Assembly (NCBI GenBank): GCA_017553285.1
Contig: JAFZMK010000327.1
Span: 1-34,563, forward strand
DNA: 34,563 nt
Direction of reading: 5' to 3'
Source of the DNA: Rhodocyclaceae bacterium
GTDB lineage: Bacteria > Pseudomonadota > Gammaproteobacteria > Burkholderiales > Rhodocyclaceae
Of this stretch, positions 1 to 10,464 are shown piece after piece (position 1 is the first letter of the stretch; each line of letters begins with the position of its first letter). The position numbers were made by a program, and so were the translations under genes. The notes beneath the pieces are model-generated. The model searched no databases, had not been told where the DNA came from, and saw nothing but the letters and a program-made list of their open reading frames with translations.

Positions 1-2061
1 GGCTTCGGCGGCGGGTGCTTCGCCGGAAGTCTGCGCCATTGCCACCAGGGTTTCGCGTTTGTTTTTCTCTGCCTCGGCAGCGGCGCGACGGCGGGCGGCT
101 TCTTCCTGTTCTTGAAGCTGACGCGCAGAGGCGCGGGCGACCAGGTCTTGACGGGTGATGCCGCGCTGTTCGGGGTTGCCGCTGAGCAGCTCTTTCATGT
201 CCAGAATCAGCACGATCTGGCCATTTGCCAGCGTGGTGACACCGGCCACGCCCTTGGGACGGAAGGCATCGAGCGATTTAATCACGGCGTCATCGCGTCC
301 GGCGAAGGTGTCAATGCCCAGCACGAACGAGAAGCCGCCCGATTGCATCAGTACGCCAAATTCGGGGGCACGCTCCACCGGCCAGCCCAGCAGCGAACCC
401 AGCGGCAGCACGGGCAGCACTTCGCCGCGCACCATCATGCTGGAGCGCCCGCCCACTTCCTTGATTTCGTCCAGATCGATGGTGAGAATCTCGCGCACCA
501 TCGACAGCGGCACGGCAAACGGTTGTTCGCCCAGACGCACCAGCAACACGGGCAGAATCGCCAGCGTCAGCGGCAGGTTGATGGTGAAGGTGGATCCGAC
601 CATGAGCTGCGAGCGCACGTCGATGCTGCCATTGAGGCGCTGGATGTTGGTGCGCACCACGTCCATGCCCACGCCACGACCGGAAACGTCCGAGACTTTT
701 TCGGCCATGGAGAAGCCGGGCAGGAAGATGAGGTTGAAGCTGGCGGTGTCGTCCATCACCGAGGCTTCTTCTTCGGAAATCAGCCCTTTTTCGACGGCTT
801 TGGCGCGCAGCCGTTCGGCGTTCATGCCGTGGCCATCGTCCGAAATTTCGATGACGATGTGGTCACCTTCCTGACGCGCCGACAGGCGCACGATGGATTT
901 CGGCGGCTTGTGCGCGGCCTTGCGCTCTTCGGGGCTTTCCACGCCGTGGTCGACGGCGTTACGCACCAGGTGAATAATCGGGTCGGCAAGGTCTTCAATC
1001 ATGGTCTTGTCGACTTCGGTCTCTTCGCCTTCGAGCACCAGTTCCACGTCTTTGCCCAGGTTGCGGGCAAGGTCGCGGGCAATCCGGGGATATTTCTGGA
1101 ACAGGCGGCCAATGGGCTGCATCCGCGTTTTCATGACGGCGTTTTGCAGGTCCGAGACCAGCAAATCAAGCTGGCTGACGGCCACATCCAGCGCGTGCAG
1201 GGTGTCGACGTCGCTGCTGCCGCTGAGAATTTCGGTGCGCAGCGCGTTCAGGCGGTTTTTGGTCAGACCAATTTCGCCCGAGAGGTTGAGCACCTGGTCC
1301 AGACGGGTGGTATCCACACGAATGGAGGTGTCGCGGCTTTTTTCGATGTCGCGCCGCCCGGTGGCTGCCGATGCGCCCGGTTTGTCGGATGCACGGCGCC
1401 CCCACGGGCCGGGACCTTGTTCGGCAGCCGGGGCTGCGGGCGCACCCGCCGGTACCACCGCACCAGCAGGTGCCGCAGCGGGGGCGGCAGCCGCAGCGGC
1501 AGGCACCGGCGCAGAGCCGGTGACCGCGCCATGAAGCTGTTGCCAGTCGGGCGAGCCTTCTTGCGGCGCAGCGCCAGCAGCCGGTGCCGCTTCCGCCGCC
1601 GGTGCGGCAGCGGGGGCAGCAGCAGCCGGAGCCGCTTCGGCAGCAGGCGCAGCCGCAGCAGTGGGCAGTTCGCCAGAAATCGCCTGCTTACAACGGGCGA
1701 TGACTTCCGGCGGCGCGGCAGGCGGTTGCTGGCTGCGTTCGAGATAGCTGAACATCTCACGGATTTCGCCCGTGGCTTCCATGATGACGTCCATGAGTTC
1801 CGGACTCAGCGTCAGCTCGTTGTTGCGCAGCTTGTCGAAGAGGTTTTCGGTCAAGTGGCAGAGCGTGACCATCTCGGTGGCGTTCAGAAAGCCCGCGCCC
1901 CCCTTGATGGTGTGAAAACCACGGAAGATGTCGTTGAGCAAGTTGTGATCGTTCGGGGAGCGTTCGAGATCGACGAGCTTGTTATCGACACCCGAGAGCA
2001 GATCGCCCGCTTCCACCAGAAAATCCTGGAGAAGGTCTTCCATTCCGGCAAAGTCACTCAT
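1..2061 (-). CDS. cheA: Chemotaxis histidine kinase CheA (C-terminus cut by window edge)
   Basis: CheA autophosphorylates on a histidine under chemoreceptor control and passes the phosphate to CheY (and normally CheB). The visible 687 codons begin at an ATG preceded by a purine-rich AGAGGGAATC. The P1/Hpt domain has the motif HTIKGGAGF with the phospho-acceptor His50. An Ala/Pro-rich linker (about 125-235) replaces a recognisable P2 domain. The dimerisation helices begin near residue 247. The kinase N box HLVRNAVDHGVE lies near 360, then DDGHGM near 410 and GRGVGMDVV near 462, so the ATP site looks intact. A CheW-like domain follows (about 500-622). The frame does not stop there: a charged Glu/Arg/Ala-rich tail runs at least 60 residues to the window edge. 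It lies 65 bp after cheZ and is probably the last visible gene of the cheV-cheV-cheY-cheZ-cheA unit. Identity is secure; the function of the tail is unknown. Confidence 0.96.
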   Translation of the reverse strand, partial: MSDFAGMEDLLQDFLVEAGDLLSGVDNKLVDLERSPNDHNLLNDIFRGFHTIKGGAGFLNATEMVTLCHLTENLFDKLRNNELTLSPELMDVIMEATGEIREMFSYLERSQQPPAAPPEVIARCKQAISGELPTAAAAPAAEAAPAAAAPAAAPAAEAAPAAGAAPQEGSPDWQQLHGAVTGSAPVPAAAAAAPAAAPAGAVVPAGAPAAPAAEQGPGPWGRRASDKPGASAATGRRDIEKSRDTSIRVDTTRLDQVLNLSGEIGLTKNRLNALRTEILSGSSDVDTLHALDVAVSQLDLLVSDLQNAVMKTRMQPIGRLFQKYPRIARDLARNLGKDVELVLEGEETEVDKTMIEDLADPIIHLVRNAVDHGVESPEERKAAHKPPKSIVRLSARQEGDHIVIEISDDGHGMNAERLRAKAVEKGLISEEEASVMDDTASFNLIFLPGFSMAEKVSDVSGRGVGMDVVRTNIQRLNGSIDVRSQLMVGSTFTINLPLTLAILPVLLVRLGEQPFAVPLSMVREILTIDLDEIKEVGGRSSMMVRGEVLPVLPLGSLLGWPVERAPEFGVLMQSGGFSFVLGIDTFAGRDDAVIKSLDAFRPKGVAGVTTLANGQIVLILDMKELLSGNPEQRGITRQDLVARASARQLQEQEEAARRRAAAEAEKNKRETLVAMAQTSGEAPAAEA

Positions 2062-3511: not shown

Positions 3512-4468
3512 TCAAGCATTCCGTAACAACATGGAACGTAGCGTCTCGGCCAGTACGTCGCCATCAAACTTGGCGACATAGGCATCCACGCCCGCTTGTT
3601 TGCCCATTGCCCGGTTGGCTTCCGATGACAGCGAAGAGTGCATGATCACCGGGATGCCTTCAAAGCGACGGTCAGACTTGATCTTGCGGGAGAGCACATA
3701 GCCATCCATTTCTGGCATTTCGGCGTCGACCAGAACGACATCAATGTCGTCATGCAGGTTGCGACCGCTTTGCTTCGCAAACGAGGCGAGCGAATCGAGC
3801 CGCGTCCAGGCTTCCAGGCCATTGGTGGCGAATTTGTGCCGGACACCGAGTTTATCAAGAACTTCTGCGATTTTCCGACGGGCGACCGCAGAATCATCCA
3901 CATAAAAGACGTTGTAATCGTGTCCGCCGACAATCGGCGGAATCGAACCCACAGAGGCTTCGCCAAAGGTGTTGGAAAGAATGGTTTCCACGTCCAGAAT
4001 GGATACCAGCACGCCATTGTCCAGTTCGGTGATGGCGGTGATGTAGCCGCCGGTGCCGCTGACGTTGTCGGGCGTGCGCACGCGGTCCCATTCGACACGC
4101 ACGATGCGGTCGACCGAGTCGACCAGAAAGCCCATCGTGCGCTTGCTGTATTCGGTCACCATCATGGTGCCGCCCAGTTCGCCGCCCTTGGTCAGACCAA
4201 GCGCGTGCCCCAGCGAAAGCACCGGCACCACGTGACCGCGCAGGGAAATCAGCCCTTCCACGCCGGCAGGCATGTTCGGCGTTTTGGTGATGAAAGGGGT
4301 GGCGGTGACTTCGCGCACCTTGAACACGTTGATACCGAAAACCTCGCTCGTTCCCAGCGAGAAGAGCAGGATTTCCATGCGGTTGGAGCCAACGAGGCTG
4401 GTGCGCTCATTTACTTCGCCCAGCGGACCTTTCGACTCGACAGGAGGCAGTTCTTTCGTCTCGGACAT
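3512..4468 (-). CDS. cheV: CheV-type adaptor (CheW-receiver fusion), downstream copy
   Basis: CheV couples receptors to CheA through its CheW-like half and can accept phosphate on its receiver half, which is thought to serve adaptation or act as a phosphate sink. The CheW-like domain covers about residues 28-170 (LLFSLG, VFGINVFKVREV, GLISLRGHVVPV). The receiver covers about 186-316, with Asp191-Asp192, phospho-acceptor Asp248 (VLVDAEMPEMDG) and Lys300. The usual switch Thr is Ser278 or Ser279 (IMHSSLS). AAGGA lies 7 nt before the ATG. It follows a second, similar cheV by 72 bp. The two align almost without gaps in the receiver half, with Asp248 and Lys300 at the same positions, suggesting an old tandem duplication. 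Confidence 0.94.
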   Translation of the reverse strand: MSETKELPPVESKGPLGEVNERTSLVGSNRMEILLFSLGTSEVFGINVFKVREVTATPFITKTPNMPAGVEGLISLRGHVVPVLSLGHALGLTKGGELGGTMMVTEYSKRTMGFLVDSVDRIVRVEWDRVRTPDNVSGTGGYITAITELDNGVLVSILDVETILSNTFGEASVGSIPPIVGGHDYNVFYVDDSAVARRKIAEVLDKLGVRHKFATNGLEAWTRLDSLASFAKQSGRNLHDDIDVVLVDAEMPEMDGYVLSRKIKSDRRFEGIPVIMHSSLSSEANRAMGKQAGVDAYVAKFDGDVLAETLRSMLLRNA

Positions 4469-4540
4469 GATCGTTCCTTAATCTCTCAAAACGTGCTTGA
4501 TCGGATCGGCGCGCGGTTTTTCCGTTCGGCCTCGCGTCTG

Positions 4541-5491
4541 TCAGCGCCCCATCAGGCGGCGCAAGGTGGCCGACAGACGTTGCGGTTCAAATTTGGGAAT
4601 GTATTCGTCCACCCCCACGGATTTGCCCAGTTGCTGGTTGGACATGCCGGAGAGCGACGAGTGCATGAGCACGGGCACACCGTTGAAGCGCTCGTCCGCT
4701 TTCACGGACTTGGTGAGCATGTAGCCGTCCATTTCCGGCATTTCCACGTCGGTGAGGATGGCGGCCACGCGCTCGGTGACCGGCACGCCCGCTGCCTGAC
4801 ACTGTTGCGCAATCTGTTGCAGCATCTGCCAGGCCATGTGACCGTTGACCGCGCCACGCCCGGGTACGTTGAGCGCTTGCAGGGTGCGTTCGATCTGCTT
4901 GCGGGCGATGGAGGAATCGTCGGCATAGACCACCATGCGGGTTTCGTTTTCCACCGGCTCGATGCCTTTGAAGAGGAATTCTTCGCCTTCGGCGTAGTGG
5001 CTGGTCTCGGCCAGCACTTTTTCTACGTCCAGCATCATGACGAGCTTGTTGCCGGGCAGTTCGGTAACCGCCGTGACCAGACCGCCGAGGTTGGCGGTGA
5101 GCATTTCGGGCGGCACGCGCATCTGCGACCAGTCCAGACGCAGGATGGTGTCGACCGCTTCGACCAGAAAGCCCTGGGTGTGACCGTTGTATTCGGTGAT
5201 GATCATCACGTTGCGCGGCGTCTCATCCTTGATGCCGACGTATTTGCCCAGGTCGACCACCGGCACCAGCGTGCCGCGCAGGCTGACCATGCCTTCGACA
5301 CAATCGGGCATTTCCGGCGCGGCGGTGATTTCGCCGCGACGAATCACCTCGCGTACCTTGAAGACGTTGATGCCGAAAATTTCCCTGCGACCGGATACGG
5401 AATCCTCGCCGAGCGAAAAAAGCAGGATTTCCAGCTTGTTGGTACCGGCAAGGCGGGTACGGGCGTCGATGCTTTTCAACAGATCAGACAT
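4541..5491 (-). CDS. cheV: CheV-type adaptor (CheW-receiver fusion), upstream copy
   Basis: A second CheW-receiver adaptor of 316 residues. The frame stays open further upstream to 5653, but that part has no CheW-like sequence and crosses a terminator hairpin. I therefore chose the ATG at 5491, which has AAGGAG 7 nt upstream and a start (MSDLLKSID) that leads straight into the CheW domain. CheW-like region about 19-165 (LLFSLG, IFGINVFKVREV, GMVSLRGTLVPVVDLG). Receiver about 185-315 with Asp191-Asp192, Asp248 (ILTDVEMPEMDG) and Lys300 (YIPKF). Compared with its neighbour it has a short polar insert (DSVSGRRE) in the first CheW strand pair. It is the first gene after the terminator behind cheB, so it probably starts a new transcription unit. 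With no cheW in the window, the two CheVs may supply the coupling function. Confidence 0.94.
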   Translation of the reverse strand: MSDLLKSIDARTRLAGTNKLEILLFSLGEDSVSGRREIFGINVFKVREVIRRGEITAAPEMPDCVEGMVSLRGTLVPVVDLGKYVGIKDETPRNVMIITEYNGHTQGFLVEAVDTILRLDWSQMRVPPEMLTANLGGLVTAVTELPGNKLVMMLDVEKVLAETSHYAEGEEFLFKGIEPVENETRMVVYADDSSIARKQIERTLQALNVPGRGAVNGHMAWQMLQQIAQQCQAAGVPVTERVAAILTDVEMPEMDGYMLTKSVKADERFNGVPVLMHSSLSGMSNQQLGKSVGVDEYIPKFEPQRLSATLRRLMGR

Positions 5492-5535
5492 TTTTTTCTC
5501 CTTGCGAGCGTGTGACTGCGCAATTGACCGAGGAC

Positions 5536-5541
5536 ATTCTA
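5536..5541 (-). promoter_or_regulatory. Possible -10 element upstream of the cheV-cheV-cheY-cheZ-cheA unit
   Basis: On the minus strand TAGAAT (5 of 6 to TATAAT) lies about 45 nt upstream of the upstream cheV and just downstream of the terminator behind cheB. This is where a new promoter would be expected. No good -35 hexamer sits at 16-18 nt spacing, so the call rests on one box and on position. Confidence 0.28.
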
Positions 5542-5577
5542 AAAGGTTTGCAACCAATGATGCAGCAGAAAAACAGG

Positions 5578-5605
5578 GCAAAAGCGGGAATATTCCCGCT
5601 TTTGC
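5578..5605 (-). terminator. Intrinsic terminator downstream of cheB
   Basis: A perfect 28-nt inverted repeat with core AGCGGGAATATTCCCGCT, flanked by AAAA/TTTT and followed on the minus strand by CCTGTTTTT. It lies 60 nt past the cheB stop and 87 nt before the upstream cheV start. It separates the upstream adaptation genes from the downstream signalling genes. Because the repeat is symmetric it could work in both directions, but only minus-strand genes flank it. Confidence 0.72.
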
Positions 5606-5664
5606 GAAATTTCGTTCCGCCGGTGACCGCAGGCAAGCGCCCCAGACGGTCACAGATGGCTAGT

Positions 5665-6315
5665 TTACACGGGATTGCCCGCAGACAAGCCCGGCAGGCG
5701 ACGAACAATTCCTTGCGCGACCTCTTCAATGGGCAAACTTTCGCATGAAGCGCCAATCTGGTCGGCGACACGGGGCATTCCGTAGACCACGCACGAGGCT
5801 TGGTCCTGCGTGATGGTCCAGGCGCCCTTCTGGCGCAGCTTCAGCAGACCATCGGCGCCATCCCGGCCCATGCCGGTGAGCAATACGGCAACGATTGCGC
5901 AGGAGGCTTCGGCAACCACGGAGCGAAACAACATGTCGACCGAGGGGCGGTGGCGGTTGCACGGCTCGGCGCTGGACAGGCAGCAGCGGTAGTGACCCGC
6001 GCCACGGGCAAGCAGCAGGTGCGAGTGCCCGGGGGCAATATAGACCGTGCCCGGGCAGAGCGATTCGTCGTGCTCGGCTTCCTTGACGCGCATCTGACAC
6101 GAATCATTCAGGCGGCTGGCAAAGGTTTCGGTGAAATTTTCCGGCATGTGCTGCACCACCATTACCGGCGGCGTGTTGGCCGGCAGGTTGGAGAGCACGG
6201 TCTTGAGCGCATCGGTGCCGCCCGTCGAGGCGCCAATGACCACAATCTGGCGCACGATGCTGACCGACGGCGGCGTTTTCCCACCTTGGCAAGAAGAAGC
6301 GTCGTAGCTGCTCAT
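5665..6315 (-). CDS. cheB: CheB methylesterase/glutamine deamidase, catalytic domain only (no receiver)
   Basis: CheB removes methyl groups from glutamates of chemoreceptors and deamidates glutamines, opposing CheR. The 216-residue protein carries the full catalytic set: Ser30 (GASTGGT), His56 (VVQHMPEN) and Asp152 (GMGRDGADG). The N-terminal receiver of standard CheB (about 130 residues plus linker) is missing, and only about 20 residues precede the catalytic domain. The ATG overlaps the cheR stop as ATGA, with AGGAAGA upstream, so there is no room for a receiver. The in-frame extension towards 6555 lies inside cheR and has no receiver motifs. Receiver-less CheB proteins are known in alternative pathways (ChpB, FrzG). 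Here activity cannot be set by phosphorylation of its own receiver. Confidence 0.93.
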   Translation of the reverse strand: MSSYDASSCQGGKTPPSVSIVRQIVVIGASTGGTDALKTVLSNLPANTPPVMVVQHMPENFTETFASRLNDSCQMRVKEAEHDESLCPGTVYIAPGHSHLLLARGAGHYRCCLSSAEPCNRHRPSVDMLFRSVVAEASCAIVAVLLTGMGRDGADGLLKLRQKGAWTITQDQASCVVYGMPRVADQIGASCESLPIEEVAQGIVRRLPGLSAGNPV

Positions 6316-7715
6316 TTCTTCTTCCTCGTGATGCGATAGACGGTTTTGCCCGCGCTGGTAAACAGGTCGGAGGCGTGCAGGAAACTTTCCGAATGCCCGG
6401 CGTAGAGTTCGCCGTCTGCTTCCAGCACGCGCAGAAAACGTTGCAGGATGGTGCGCTGCGTTTCCCGGTCGAAATAAATCATCACGTTGCGGCAGAAAAT
6501 GGCGTCGAAATGACCTTGCAGCGGCCAGTTGGCATCCAGCAGGTTGATGCGGCAAAAGCGAATCATCTGCTGTAGTTCCGGAATCACTTTCCAGCGGCTG
6601 CTATGTTCGCCGTCCATGGGCTGGAAAAACTTGCGCAGCCGCCCTTCCGAGATGCCGGTCATGCGATCGCTGCTATAGACGCCTTCGCGCGCATCAATCA
6701 GCACCTGGGTGTTGATGTCGCTGGCGACGATTTCCACCGGCGGATGCAGGCTGCCGAAGGCTTCGCAGGCGGTTATCGCCAGCGAATAGGGTTCTTCGCC
6801 CGTCGAGGCGGCACAGCACCAGATGCGAAACGGGCGCGTGAGGGGCTGGCTCATGCGCAGACGGTGCGCCAGCAGCTCGAAATGGTGCGCTTCGCGGAAA
6901 AAGGAAGTCAGGTTGGTGGTCAGCGCGTTGACGAAAACTTCCCATTCGGCACCATCACGGTCGATGAGTTCCAGATATTCGCGGAACGTCTTCAGGCGAC
7001 GCTCGCGCAGGCGCTTGACCAGACGGCCATAGACCATGTCCTGCTTGCTGGAGGCGAGCGCAATGCCGGCAAAATCGTAGATGCGCCGGCGAATGTTTTC
7101 GTAGTCTTCAATGGTGAAGACAAATTCGCGCGTGTTCAGTTTGTTGGAGGCGCTCACCGGGCGCATGGCCAGCGGCAAAGGCTCGTCGGCGCGCGAGGCG
7201 GGAATGCGCGAGGCGGGCGATGCGCCCGCAGGCGGCAGCGGTGGCGGCGGTGGTGCCTTGCGCTGCGTGCTGCCAAAGTGAATGGGCGCTTTCGGCGCGC
7301 TCGCTGCCGGCGTGTGAACGGGCTGCGGCGCGGCGGCTTTGGGGGCTTCTTTGGGCGCGTCTTTCGGAGCTTCTTTGGAGGCTTCTTTGGGGGCGTCTTT
7401 TTCCTGCACCAGTATGCCGGCCAGCACGGCGGCCACCTGCTCGGAAAACGATTTGGACTTGGGCGCGTCAGCTTGCGCACGCGGGGCAGACGATTCGGCA
7501 GCCGGTACGGCAGCCGACACCGGCGCTTCTTCTACCGGCGCCGGGCGTTGCACACGGGCGGCGGCCAGCGCCAGCGATTCTTCCACCGATCGAATCAGCG
7601 GACGCGGGCGCTCGGCCTGGCTGGCCGACCATTTCCCCATGCTGGCAAACGCGCCGCTTTTCGTAGCGGCACGGCCTTCAGGGTGGCCTGCGGGAGTTCG
7701 CGATTTATCGGTCAT
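6312..7715 (-). CDS. cheR: Chemoreceptor methyltransferase CheR with long disordered N-terminal extension
   Basis: CheR methylates receptor glutamates using S-adenosylmethionine. The catalytic part is normal: an N-terminal helical domain from about residue 196 (FVFTIEDYENIRRRIYDF), the SAM-binding motif WCCAASTGEEPYSLA near 299-313, and FDAIFCRNVMIYFDRE near 403-418. CheR is usually about 280 residues; this protein has 467. The first 190 residues are Ala/Pro/Lys-rich and include a run of KEAP/KEAS/KDAP units (110-127) and a five-proline stretch near 155. One short helical segment (SFSEQVAAVLAGILVQEKD, 89-107) stands out in the extension. The ATG lies 3 nt after the stop of the Hpt/CheW-like gene, and the cheR stop overlaps the cheB start, so these genes are tightly coupled. 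Confidence 0.95.
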   Translation of the reverse strand: MTDKSRTPAGHPEGRAATKSGAFASMGKWSASQAERPRPLIRSVEESLALAAARVQRPAPVEEAPVSAAVPAAESSAPRAQADAPKSKSFSEQVAAVLAGILVQEKDAPKEASKEAPKDAPKEAPKAAAPQPVHTPAASAPKAPIHFGSTQRKAPPPPPLPPAGASPASRIPASRADEPLPLAMRPVSASNKLNTREFVFTIEDYENIRRRIYDFAGIALASSKQDMVYGRLVKRLRERRLKTFREYLELIDRDGAEWEVFVNALTTNLTSFFREAHHFELLAHRLRMSQPLTRPFRIWCCAASTGEEPYSLAITACEAFGSLHPPVEIVASDINTQVLIDAREGVYSSDRMTGISEGRLRKFFQPMDGEHSSRWKVIPELQQMIRFCRINLLDANWPLQGHFDAIFCRNVMIYFDRETQRTILQRFLRVLEADGELYAGHSESFLHASDLFTSAGKTVYRITRKKK

Positions 7716-7718
7716 TGC

Positions 7719-9302
7719 TCATGCACGGGAAAACGGCGCGGCAGGCGGCGAATCTTCCGCCGGTACGGCATTTTCCCCGGAAGAAACAGGGTTGCTGCCC
7801 ATTGTCGCAGATTTTTCCCCGCCCAGCGCATCGCCCGATTGCGCCGTGTGCAGTCGTGCACGCAAGGGGGTGAGCACCGCGTGCACCCGCGCGCCCAACG
7901 CCTGCGCCGTCTCGCCCTTGGCGGCGGCCAGCGTGACATCTGCCTGCAAGGCGGCCAGCGTCTGCTCGGCCTGTTGCAGCGTGCGGCGCAGCGCTGTGCC
8001 CTGCACTGCCAGTTCGGGCGAGATCTGCGCGGCGCTGAGCATTTCCAGCAGCCCGGGCACACTCAGCCGCCACAGCCGCCGCCCGTCGTGCGTCTGCACC
8101 GCACCGGCCAGATACGGCCAGCGCCCGCGCAGGTGTTCGGGCAAATAGAGCAATTCGTCGGCAGCAAAACATTCCAGCCCGGCCACCACCTGCACCAGCA
8201 GCGCCGCCTCGCCGCTTTCTTCGCCAATGACCAGGGCAAAGGCGGGAGGTAGCTCTTCGAGCGCACGCGGGTGCACGTGCGGCCACCATTGTTGCGGGGC
8301 GAGCAGCGGCAGCAGACCTTGCGCAAACGGCAGCCGCGCCGGGGCGTCCGTCGGCCACAGTACGTCGTCCTGCACGGCGACGATGCCGTGCACACAGGCC
8401 AGCGGCAAGGCAAAAGCGTAACCGGCACAGTGAAAAATCTGCATCACCTCGCCCGCTTCCCTGCGCAGCGCCGGTACGGGCGCGGGCGCAGGCAGCGCCG
8501 AGGCGGCAGGCGCAGCTTCTTCGGGCTGCGGCGCGGCTTCGGGTGCGGGGTTGGGCGCGGGTGCGGCTTCGGGGGCGGGTTTTGCCTCCGCCACGGCTTG
8601 CGGTGCGGGTTTGGGCGCTGGGGCGGGTTTGGGCGCGGGTTTTGCGGCGGGGGCGGCTTTTGGTGCCGGGGCGCGGGCGGCGCTCTCTTCGGTTACGACG
8701 ACCGAGCCGGGTTCGGCCAGCGAAGCCAGCGCGTTTTCCAGCACCGCATCGGGCGCGTCCGTTTGCAGACACAGTTCGCACGTTTGCGAGGGCGCGGGCG
8801 CGGCTTCGACCGAAGGGATGCCGCCCGTAAAACGCCCAAGTTCCGACAAGGCTTCCAGCGCACGCCGCCACAGCAGGCTCACGCCCACCAGCATCCGCCC
8901 GACCTGAAAACGCAGCCGCACCCGTCGCCCCATCGGTTTGAGGCGCGGCGCTTGCCGCGCATCCGCAGCCAGCGCGCAACACATGACGTCGATGACCGCT
9001 TCGTCACACGCCCGCTGCGCGCGCAGCCGCGCCAGTTGCTCGTGCAGCAAGGTGATGCCTTGCACCAGCAGCGCCACGTCAGTGGTCTGGCGCGCGTGCT
9101 GCTGCAAGGCGCGCGCCAGACGGGCGAAAGATTCGTAGCCCAGGGTGGCCGCCGCACCACACAGCGAATGCAGCAGCCGCGCCAGTTCATAGCGGTCGGC
9201 CTCCGCCACCGTCTCGCCAGCCAGCAAACTGGCCAGCGAATCCAGCACGGAAGCGCTTTCCGCGAAAAACTGATCCTGCAAGGAAAGACTTTCTGCACTC
9301 AT
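7719..9302 (-). CDS. CheA-like protein lacking kinase domains: Hpt-like, P2-like module, Pro/Ala linker, CheW-like
   Basis: I do not recognise a named gene. The ATG at 9302 was chosen because the frame further upstream overlaps motB and is not protein-like. The Shine-Dalgarno is weak. The 527-residue product has four visible parts. (1) An Hpt-like helical domain (about 5-105) with LLHSLCGAAATLGY; His45 could accept phosphate, but the usual Lys of HxLKG is Cys48. (2) Residues 127-205 (RRVRLRF, ALEALSELG, CELCLQTDAPDAVLENAL) resemble the module between P1 and the kinase in many CheA proteins. (3) A PAPKPA-type linker (210-280). (4) A CheW-like domain (about 287-421; FALPLACVHGIVAV, GLLPLL, ALLVQVVAGLECF, YLAGAV). 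A helical and then polar tail follows. No dimerisation helices, N box or glycine boxes exist. Lying between motB and cheR, it probably acts as a scaffold or phosphate relay. Confidence 0.85.
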   Translation of the reverse strand: MSAESLSLQDQFFAESASVLDSLASLLAGETVAEADRYELARLLHSLCGAAATLGYESFARLARALQQHARQTTDVALLVQGITLLHEQLARLRAQRACDEAVIDVMCCALAADARQAPRLKPMGRRVRLRFQVGRMLVGVSLLWRRALEALSELGRFTGGIPSVEAAPAPSQTCELCLQTDAPDAVLENALASLAEPGSVVVTEESAARAPAPKAAPAAKPAPKPAPAPKPAPQAVAEAKPAPEAAPAPNPAPEAAPQPEEAAPAASALPAPAPVPALRREAGEVMQIFHCAGYAFALPLACVHGIVAVQDDVLWPTDAPARLPFAQGLLPLLAPQQWWPHVHPRALEELPPAFALVIGEESGEAALLVQVVAGLECFAADELLYLPEHLRGRWPYLAGAVQTHDGRRLWRLSVPGLLEMLSAAQISPELAVQGTALRRTLQQAEQTLAALQADVTLAAAKGETAQALGARVHAVLTPLRARLHTAQSGDALGGEKSATMGSNPVSSGENAVPAEDSPPAAPFSRA

Positions 9303-9423: not shown

Positions 9424-10464
9424 TCACATTGTCGTGTCCGTTGCCTGTCCGCGCGCGCGCAGTTCCATTTCCCGCGCCGCTTCGCTGTCTTCCGGCGGCG
9501 CTTCTGGTGCGCCAAAGGATTCCCGGCGCATGTCTTCTTCGGCCTGTTTGTTGAGCACCAGCAGGCTGATGCGGCGGTTGATGGGCGCGGCGGGGTCTTC
9601 GGGCACCAGCGGCGCAATATCTGCCAGCCCCACCACACGCATCACTTTCGCCGGGTCCAGCCCGCCTTGCACCAGTTCGCGGCGCGAGGCGTTGGCGCGG
9701 TCGGCAGAAAGTTCCCAGTTGGAAAAACCGCGATGACCGCTGATAAACGGCGTGGAATCGGTATGCCCCGAGATGGAAATCTTGTTGGGCACGCCATTGA
9801 GCGCGCGCCCGATGGCACGCAACAGCGAGCGCATGTGCGGCTGCACCTCGGCACTGCCGCTGCTGAACATGGGGCGGTTTTTCTCGTCCACAATCTGGAT
9901 GCGCAAGCCTTCGGCGGTAATCTGCACCAGCAGTTGTTCCCGATACGGGCGCAGTTCCGGGCTGGCTTCCACCACTGCTTCAATGCGCCCTTTCAAATCC
10001 AGCAACTGGGCGCGCTCGGCGCTTTTGTCCACGCCGCCCACACCTTCGCCCGTACCTTCGCCGGAAAGGTCTTTGCCCTGGTCGCCACGGTCACTCTGAC
10101 CGCCTTGCGCGCGCAGGCTGGCATCGTCCGTTTTCGGTTTTTCGCGCCCGGGCGTGGTGCCACGGCGCACCTGACCGACCGATTTGGTCAAATCCTCGCC
10201 ACCGGCTGGCAAGACGCTGGAAATTTCCTGCTCGCCCACCGAAGAGCCGCCCTGCATGGCGACTTTCATTTCCATGTCAAAGCCTTCGGCAATCCCGCGC
10301 AGGTCTTCTTCCGAAGTCGAACCCAGCAGCCACAACAGCAAGAAGAAGGCCATCATCGCCGTCACGAAGTCGGCGTATGCGATTTTCCACGCACCGCCGT
10401 GGTGACCACCGCCACCCTTTTTGATGCGTTTGATGACTATTGGCTGTTGGGTTTTGTCGCTCAT
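9424..10464 (-). CDS. motB: Flagellar stator protein MotB
   Basis: MotB forms the proton channel with MotA and anchors the stator to peptidoglycan. The 346-residue protein has a basic cytoplasmic start (IKRIKKGGGGHHGG) and one membrane helix (about 30-49) carrying the proton-carrying Asp32 (YADFVTAMMAF). A Gly-rich, charged linker includes the plug region. An OmpA-like peptidoglycan-binding domain follows (about 175-305; ISISGHTDSTPF, NWELSADRAN, NRRISLLVL). The C-terminal 40 residues are acidic and disordered. motA ends 31 nt upstream, so the two are co-transcribed. All key residues are intact. Confidence 0.97.
   Translation of the reverse strand: MSDKTQQPIVIKRIKKGGGGHHGGAWKIAYADFVTAMMAFFLLLWLLGSTSEEDLRGIAEGFDMEMKVAMQGGSSVGEQEISSVLPAGGEDLTKSVGQVRRGTTPGREKPKTDDASLRAQGGQSDRGDQGKDLSGEGTGEGVGGVDKSAERAQLLDLKGRIEAVVEASPELRPYREQLLVQITAEGLRIQIVDEKNRPMFSSGSAEVQPHMRSLLRAIGRALNGVPNKISISGHTDSTPFISGHRGFSNWELSADRANASRRELVQGGLDPAKVMRVVGLADIAPLVPEDPAAPINRRISLLVLNKQAEEDMRRESFGAPEAPPEDSEAAREMELRARGQATDTTM

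Follow-up and report, generated by a model that had tools for sequence, protein, structure and literature searches.

Kinase-less CheA proteins have been reported as rare, and the sole well-studied case is one half of a split kinase. This is CheA3 of Rhodobacter (Cereibacter) sphaeroides, in which a dead middle separates P1 from a CheW/P5 domain, and which receives its phosphate from CheA4, a kinase that has no P1 of its own (PMC2817712; PMC10782961); CheA3 is thought to be derived from a full CheA (PMC10782961, PMC2817712). In Caldicellulosiruptor, Desulfuromonas and Anaerocellum, rare Hpt+CheW proteins with a short linker have also come out of a domain search, in a paper that notes them in passing, without locus, origin or selection (PMC2829493). 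In a 2023 survey of CheA, P1, P3, P4 and P5 were present in all of its homologues (PMC10782961), so that its main data set does not cover proteins such as the one described here, which we call X.

The window analysed, a stretch of 34,563 nucleotides that is one whole contig (G000:C249) of a Rhodocyclaceae bacterium, contains a cluster in the order flhDC-like genes, motA, motB, X, cheR, cheB, cheV, cheV, cheY, cheZ, cheA. By ORF analysis of the window, X starts at an ATG at 9302. The relevant features are as follows.

9424..10464, minus strand: motB, the gene before X
7719..9302, minus strand: X, 527 aa, kinase-less and CheA-derived (P1, P2, linker, CheW-like domain, helical hairpin, tail)
8952..9296, minus strand: Hpt/CheA P1, five-helix domain, X residues 3-117 (Pfam Hpt E 3.6e-9; AF2 helices; fold match 1i5n)
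9168..9170, minus strand: His45 of X, putative phospho-acceptor, followed by Cys at +3, Gly at +4, Arg at +19 and Gln at +22
8688..8933, minus strand: P2-type CheA module, X residues 124-205, beta-alpha-beta-beta-alpha-beta (P2 HMM, hhalign, Foldseek)
8451..8690, minus strand: Pro/Ala/Lys-rich linker (PAPKPA), X residues ~205-284, differing in length between sister species
8028..8450, minus strand: divergent CheW/P5-like domain, X residues 285-425 (sub-threshold Pfam CheW; fold match; dN/dS 0.16)
7833..8024, minus strand: helical hairpin, X residues 427-490 (AF2 helices)
7722..7832, minus strand: C-terminal tail, X residues 491-527, without the W-containing CheR-docking tail of several relatives
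6312..7715, minus strand: cheR, beginning 3 nt past X
1..2061, minus strand: resident CheA (P1, P3, P4, P5; no P2), its C-terminus cut by the contig end, after P5

The closest precedent of X is CheA3. Like CheA3, X has an N-terminal P1, a C-terminal CheW/P5 domain (the CheW part by fold and by relatives) and no working kinase. CheA3, however, has a 794-aa middle with vestigial P2, P3 and P4 and with phosphatase activity, whereas X has a short linker, a recognisable P2 and no vestigial P3 or P4; and CheA3 is the P1-bearing partner of a P1-less CheA4, whereas X coexists with a complete CheA that carries P1. X thus shares the architecture of CheA3 but not its split-kinase logic and, because its partner CheA is complete, has to have some task besides standing in for an absent P1. 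The proteins of PMC2829493, compared with X by description, resemble it: they have P1 and P5/CheW only, with a shorter linker. CheV and CheW adaptors have a CheW-like docking domain as X does, with the difference that CheV bears a receiver where X bears P1 and P2.

The original prediction, made from the DNA alone, read this gene as a CheA-like protein with an Hpt segment around His45, a middle module of the kind found between P1 and the kinase core, a PAPKPA linker and a CheW-like domain, but with neither dimerisation helices nor ATP-binding boxes. This first observation is confirmed, and the interpretation built on it is partly supported and extended. The Hpt domain (PF01627, residues 9-95) scores over the curated Pfam cut-off at E 3.6e-9, with His45 in the exact motif LLHSLCGAAATLGY. 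The middle module is of CheA P2 type: it reaches 31.0 bits (E 1.7e-10) against a P2 HMM built from the CheAs encoded next to motB in relatives, the P1-P2 profile of the X family runs unbroken across P1 and P2 of E. coli CheA (2lp4, E 1.8e-22), and T. maritima P2 (1u0s) is among its Foldseek matches (E 0.037). The predicted linker is indeed there, as about 80 residues of Pro/Ala-rich sequence separating P2 from the CheW-like domain, with no long vestigial kinase or phosphatase middle. Neither P3 (PF02895, H-kinase_dim) nor the P4 HATPase gave a Pfam match in X at E<=5, the P3 matches of the genome lying outside X. NCBIfam holds no relevant model for X, so that no named family was found to cover this architecture; relatives give just partial CheA/CheW matches far under cut-off.

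The CheW-like domain requires more care. Its Pfam match (residues 289-420) is weak by sequence in this genus, at 17.7 bits (E 0.0028) against a cut-off of 23.5, and that cut-off is passed in five relatives; by fold, the domain matches 2ch4_A at Z 12.1 and TtCheW at Z 11.7. These fold comparisons come from AF2 models of the two halves of X, folded separately. The P1-P2 half was modelled at pLDDT 84.5 as five helices (3-26, 34-53, 57-72, 76-94 and 101-117) followed by a beta-alpha-beta-beta-alpha-beta unit, and among solved natural structures it comes closest to CheA P1, to the complex of CheA P1 with P2 and to P1 of R. sphaeroides CheA3, with Z 18.4 for Salmonella CheA P1 (1i5n) and Z 17 for CheA3 P1. 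The C-terminal half was modelled at a mediocre pLDDT of 64.7; for its first 142 residues, CheA P5 and CheW alone emerge as strong fold matches, at Z ~12. CheA or CheV rows were present in the alignments behind both models (P5 and CheV rows for the C-terminal half), so the fold matches support the folds but do not independently prove them, and the domains of X rest more securely on the sequence tests.

Low dN/dS against the sister species (G001) indicates that X is a selected protein and not noise. The two proteins share 83% identity at an overall dN/dS of 0.20, X being under purifying selection at about 0.2, with values of 0.16 for P1, 0.16 for the CheW half (which has the lowest dN of all parts), 0.17 for the middle module and 0.55 for the last 37 residues; CheR core and MotB give 0.20 and 0.08 in the same comparison. 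A decaying pseudogene without function is accordingly very improbable: X does evolve fast relative to MotB, sits on long branches and has its position empty in many genera, yet the ORFs are intact in carrier species, P1 and CheW domains are constrained much as the CheR core is, and kinase-less proteins at the same position in three other genera also have dN/dS of about 0.26-0.35.

Several neighbours of X have features of their own. CheR bears a fast-evolving, Ala/Pro-rich N-terminal extension of ~195 aa (60% identity to the sister species vs 85% for the core). CheB (window 5665-6351, minus strand) is a methylesterase without a receiver domain, likewise in several other X-bearing genomes; the CheBs of most loci with a CheA next to motB retain the receiver. 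The tandem cheV pair (window 3512-5653, minus strand) is conserved in the family, and most of the coupling in this array is apparently the work of these two proteins. As to the CheA encoded in the same locus, the original prediction was essentially right in calling it full: P1, P3, P4 and P5 are present before the contig ends. This resident CheA does, however, lack P2, scoring -1.8 bits against the P2 HMM. Apart from both CheVs, CheA and X itself, the only CheW-domain match in the genome is a protein beside a PilJ-like receptor, and a dedicated flagellar CheW gene was not found in this 95.7%-complete assembly. With no flagellar CheW found and a resident CheA without P2, a protein offering both a CheW-like domain and P2 is not obviously redundant here. 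Elsewhere in the genome, a ChpA-like CheA with several Hpt-like motifs of its own, which accounts for the other P3 match, and the PilJ-like receptor adjoining a CheW (G000:C76 = L013 and G000:C89 = L017) probably belong to a type IV pilus chemosensory system.

To place X in its family, the DNA around motB-cheR was examined in several dozen related loci, a survey that the original prediction had proposed. We call the motB-adjacent CheA F7 and the cheZ-adjacent CheA F6, labels given by position and not by published class models. In many relatives the slot between motB and cheR holds a second chemosensory operon, namely cheY, an F7-type cheA whose product is mostly 680-770 aa long, cheW and at least one receptor gene; in many other genera it is empty, so X is dispensable in the family. 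A third set of loci has kinase-less proteins there, as P1-(P2-)CheW in four genera and as other kinase-less P1 forms in at least five more. P1-P2-CheW occurs in this genome and in G001, G036, G119, G115 and G034, and in G117, from the same genus as G036, the P1-P2 part is seen and the gene continues beyond the contig. G062 has P1-CheW without P2. Hpt and CheW are both over the Pfam cut-off in G036, G119, G115, G034 and G062, with CheW E-values of 1e-14 to 4e-19. In G222, of the Pseudothauera group, a 473-aa ORF (L142:1806-3227, plus strand) fuses P1, F7 P5 (118 bits) and an MCP signalling piece (MCPsignal E 5e-20), ends in a DEWEDS tail and adjoins a retained cheY. G097 and G232 combine P1 with an apparent receptor C-terminal piece (weak MCPsignal matches), G237 has P1, helices and a tail, and G145, G269 and G233 have P1 alone, at 127-141 aa. 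The proteins of G016 (L009:9056-10609, minus strand) and G100 (L030:1647-3188, minus strand) add to P1-P2 a C-part of ~300 aa that matches no profile tried; it is possibly a strongly diverged P5, a vestigial P4 having been rejected since hhalign found no match for this part in F7 CheA (E 0.37). X is not carried by loci L059-L117, and an order-wide search at E<=1e-46 matched this genome alone among 399, a strict cut-off that also drops distant forms.

The slot itself points to where X came from. F7-type CheAs of Rhodocyclaceae (Pseudothauera, Azonexus, Denitromonas and others) share with X a homologous P1, a homologous P2 and the same position between motB and cheR, but are full kinases with P3, P4 and P5. 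The middle module of the X family matches F7 CheA at hhalign E 1.6e-18 vs E 0.4 for F6 CheA, and that of this genome and G001 taken together still matches F7 at E 2e-8. The resident F6-type CheA has P1 and P5 folds in common with X, but it is a full kinase without P2 and its P1 lies far from that of X in the tree; the reading of X as this CheA in truncated form was therefore rejected. Hence, of the earlier idea that X derives from a CheA that lost P3 and P4, the CheA ancestry stands, with the F7-type CheA of the slot as parent in place of the resident one. The loss itself was too simple a picture. In most assignable relatives the CheW half corresponds to the protein that cheW encodes and need not be a P5: for the relatives, hhalign gives E 8e-26 against CheW and 2e-7 against F7 P5, and in G119, G062, G034, G115 and G036 this half scores far better as F7-operon CheW (for G119, 89 bits vs 9 bits for P5). 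For these five a simple P5 was rejected; in G222 the half is F7 P5. The CheW half of this genus is too diverged to match either preferentially, nor was X placed clearly by a CheW-domain tree.

Several of the proteins also end as receptors do. The receptors of the slot terminate in a CheR-docking-type pentapeptide, e.g. DEWEEF, and similar tails occur in X of G062 (PPLPKIRRGIRQGAVAADEWEIFRE) and of G119 (PLPKVGGAARYDGSIADEWESNKK) and in G097 (RPLPKFRRTSGTTGSDQEWPEF); the strict tail motif was found in 0/604 other Che/Mot/Flh ORFs of the same loci. Since the CheW half of most assignable relatives matches the cheW product and several tails are of receptor type, collapse of cheA-cheW-mcp into one ORF is the simplest history. 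We are thus highly confident that X is a kinase-less relic of an F7-type CheA that formerly lay between motB and cheR, its cheY-cheA-cheW-mcp operon having collapsed and P1-P2 having been joined to a CheW-like domain. The P1 tree favours several independent origins of the kinase-less proteins, with G222 grouping beside CheAs of its own genus (85/54), but its starred branches force only one. With this reduction found, in more than one form, in related genera too, selection seems repeatedly to have turned a kinase operon into a non-kinase adaptor. Separately, PAS-containing proteins are encoded directly before cheR in three loci (L027:8333-10249, minus strand; L049:9001-10599, minus strand; L021:1105-2631, plus strand). 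They resemble aerotaxis receptors, with HAMP in two, no MCP signalling domain detected and a PK/PR..EW-type tail in all, and are likely degenerate receptors left from the same collapsed operon.

The tails raise the question of whether X is a relic kept so that its C-terminus tethers CheR near the array. Pentapeptides of this kind bind CheR (PMC7390727), W-containing pentapeptide-like tails are present in G097, G062, G237, G119 and G036, and the X gene stands directly before cheR. Nevertheless, the CheR-docking-type tail is gone in the genus studied here, it is missing from the P1-only genes too, and several tails lack the final aromatic, all of which makes this reading improbable.

What the kinase-less proteins have done to P1 bears most directly on function. 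In T. maritima and Salmonella CheA, Lys(+3), His(+19) and Glu(+22) form a hydrogen-bond network around the phospho-His, and they are invariant in all CheA P1s that we compared. The 17 kinase-less P1s, which are related sequences with an uncertain number of independent events among them, all keep the phospho-His, Arg(-3), Gly(+4) and Gly(+10) (17/17 each), and 13/17 keep Lys(+3) and 13/17 Glu(+22), with one Asp besides at the latter. His(+19), by comparison, is found in 0/17 of them vs 23/23 F7 and 18/18 F6 CheAs, and also in P1 of E. coli, Salmonella and T. maritima; the Thr(+18) position is Ala in 17/17. X itself goes further. The Cys in place of Lys after the phospho-acceptor, which had led the original prediction to doubt phosphotransfer, is real at +3 of a signature that otherwise retains His and Gly(+4), and His(+19) and Glu(+22) have become Arg and Gln as well. 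That doubt holds for this genus, where Cys(+3) and Gln(+22) probably make phosphotransfer by X weak. The change from Lys to Cys is specific to this genus, the general change among the kinase-less proteins being the loss of His(+19). In the yeast HPt protein Ypd1 the +3 and +4 residues contribute to the receiver interface (PMC6341664), while on mutants of the Lys/His/Glu network in CheA P1 nothing useful was found in the open literature. With His(+19) lost and +3/+4 mostly kept, the pattern fits P1s that are no longer kinase substrates and most of which still face receivers.

This pattern must be weighed against an arrangement like that of CheA3 with CheA4, in which P1 of X would be phosphorylated in trans by the resident CheA and pass phosphate to a subset of regulators. 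X has retained His45, Gly(+4) and the fold of P1, one of its nearest solved structures is P1 of CheA3, and CheA3 itself provides the precedent (PMC2817712). Still, a CheA with its own P1 needs no split partner, and all three network residues have changed in this genus, and we regard trans-phosphorylation as unlikely.

The likeliest role of X, as far as sequence can tell, is that of an adaptor in the array which makes contact with response regulators and is not a substrate of the CheA kinase. Building on the non-redundancy of its CheW-like domain and P2 in this genome, we propose that the CheW-like half would dock to receptors or CheA, and that P2, a domain absent from the resident CheA, would together with P1 bind CheY and both CheVs through their receivers. 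P1 of the kinase-less relatives would no longer be tuned as a substrate of the CheA P4 kinase, though in most of them its His may still exchange phosphate with receivers, as a buffer or sink; in this genus, with the active site further weakened, binding and not phosphotransfer would probably dominate. That X works in this manner in the resident CheA's array falls a little short of an even chance in our estimate, and the explanation as a whole, origin and adaptor mechanism together, stands at about even. The original prediction had also considered a purely structural role, here an adaptor or decoy that occupies CheW/P5 sites in the array, competing with or replacing CheW, with P1 and P2 passive. 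Active-site decay in this genus (Cys+3, Gln+22), the undetected flagellar CheW gene and the lowest dN of the CheW half fit this reading. We nonetheless consider it rather unlikely, as P1 is the one part common to 17/17 kinase-less relatives, including the P1-only genes, which argues that P1 is not passive in general, and the His is kept in this genus too.

Beyond X itself, new here are the identity of its slot with that of the F7 operon of relatives and the homology of its P1-P2 with F7 CheA and not with the resident CheA. More interesting than the single protein is the family-level pattern of repeated P1-centred relics to which CheW and receptor tails have been fused. We tentatively suggest, as possible though short of probable, that a whole operon collapsed, probably several times, into P1-built kinase-less proteins with CheW and a CheR-docking tail, and that P1, freed from the kinase and with the CheA-specific Thr-His pair (+18/+19) lost in every case seen, may now serve the array of the one CheA left as a docking hub and phosphate reservoir that faces the regulators. 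One family thus presents a graded series, from full operon through P1-P2-CheW, P1-P5-receptor piece, P1-tail and P1 alone to nothing, which allows testing of which chemosensory parts are worth keeping without a kinase, and of the role of the invariant His(+19).
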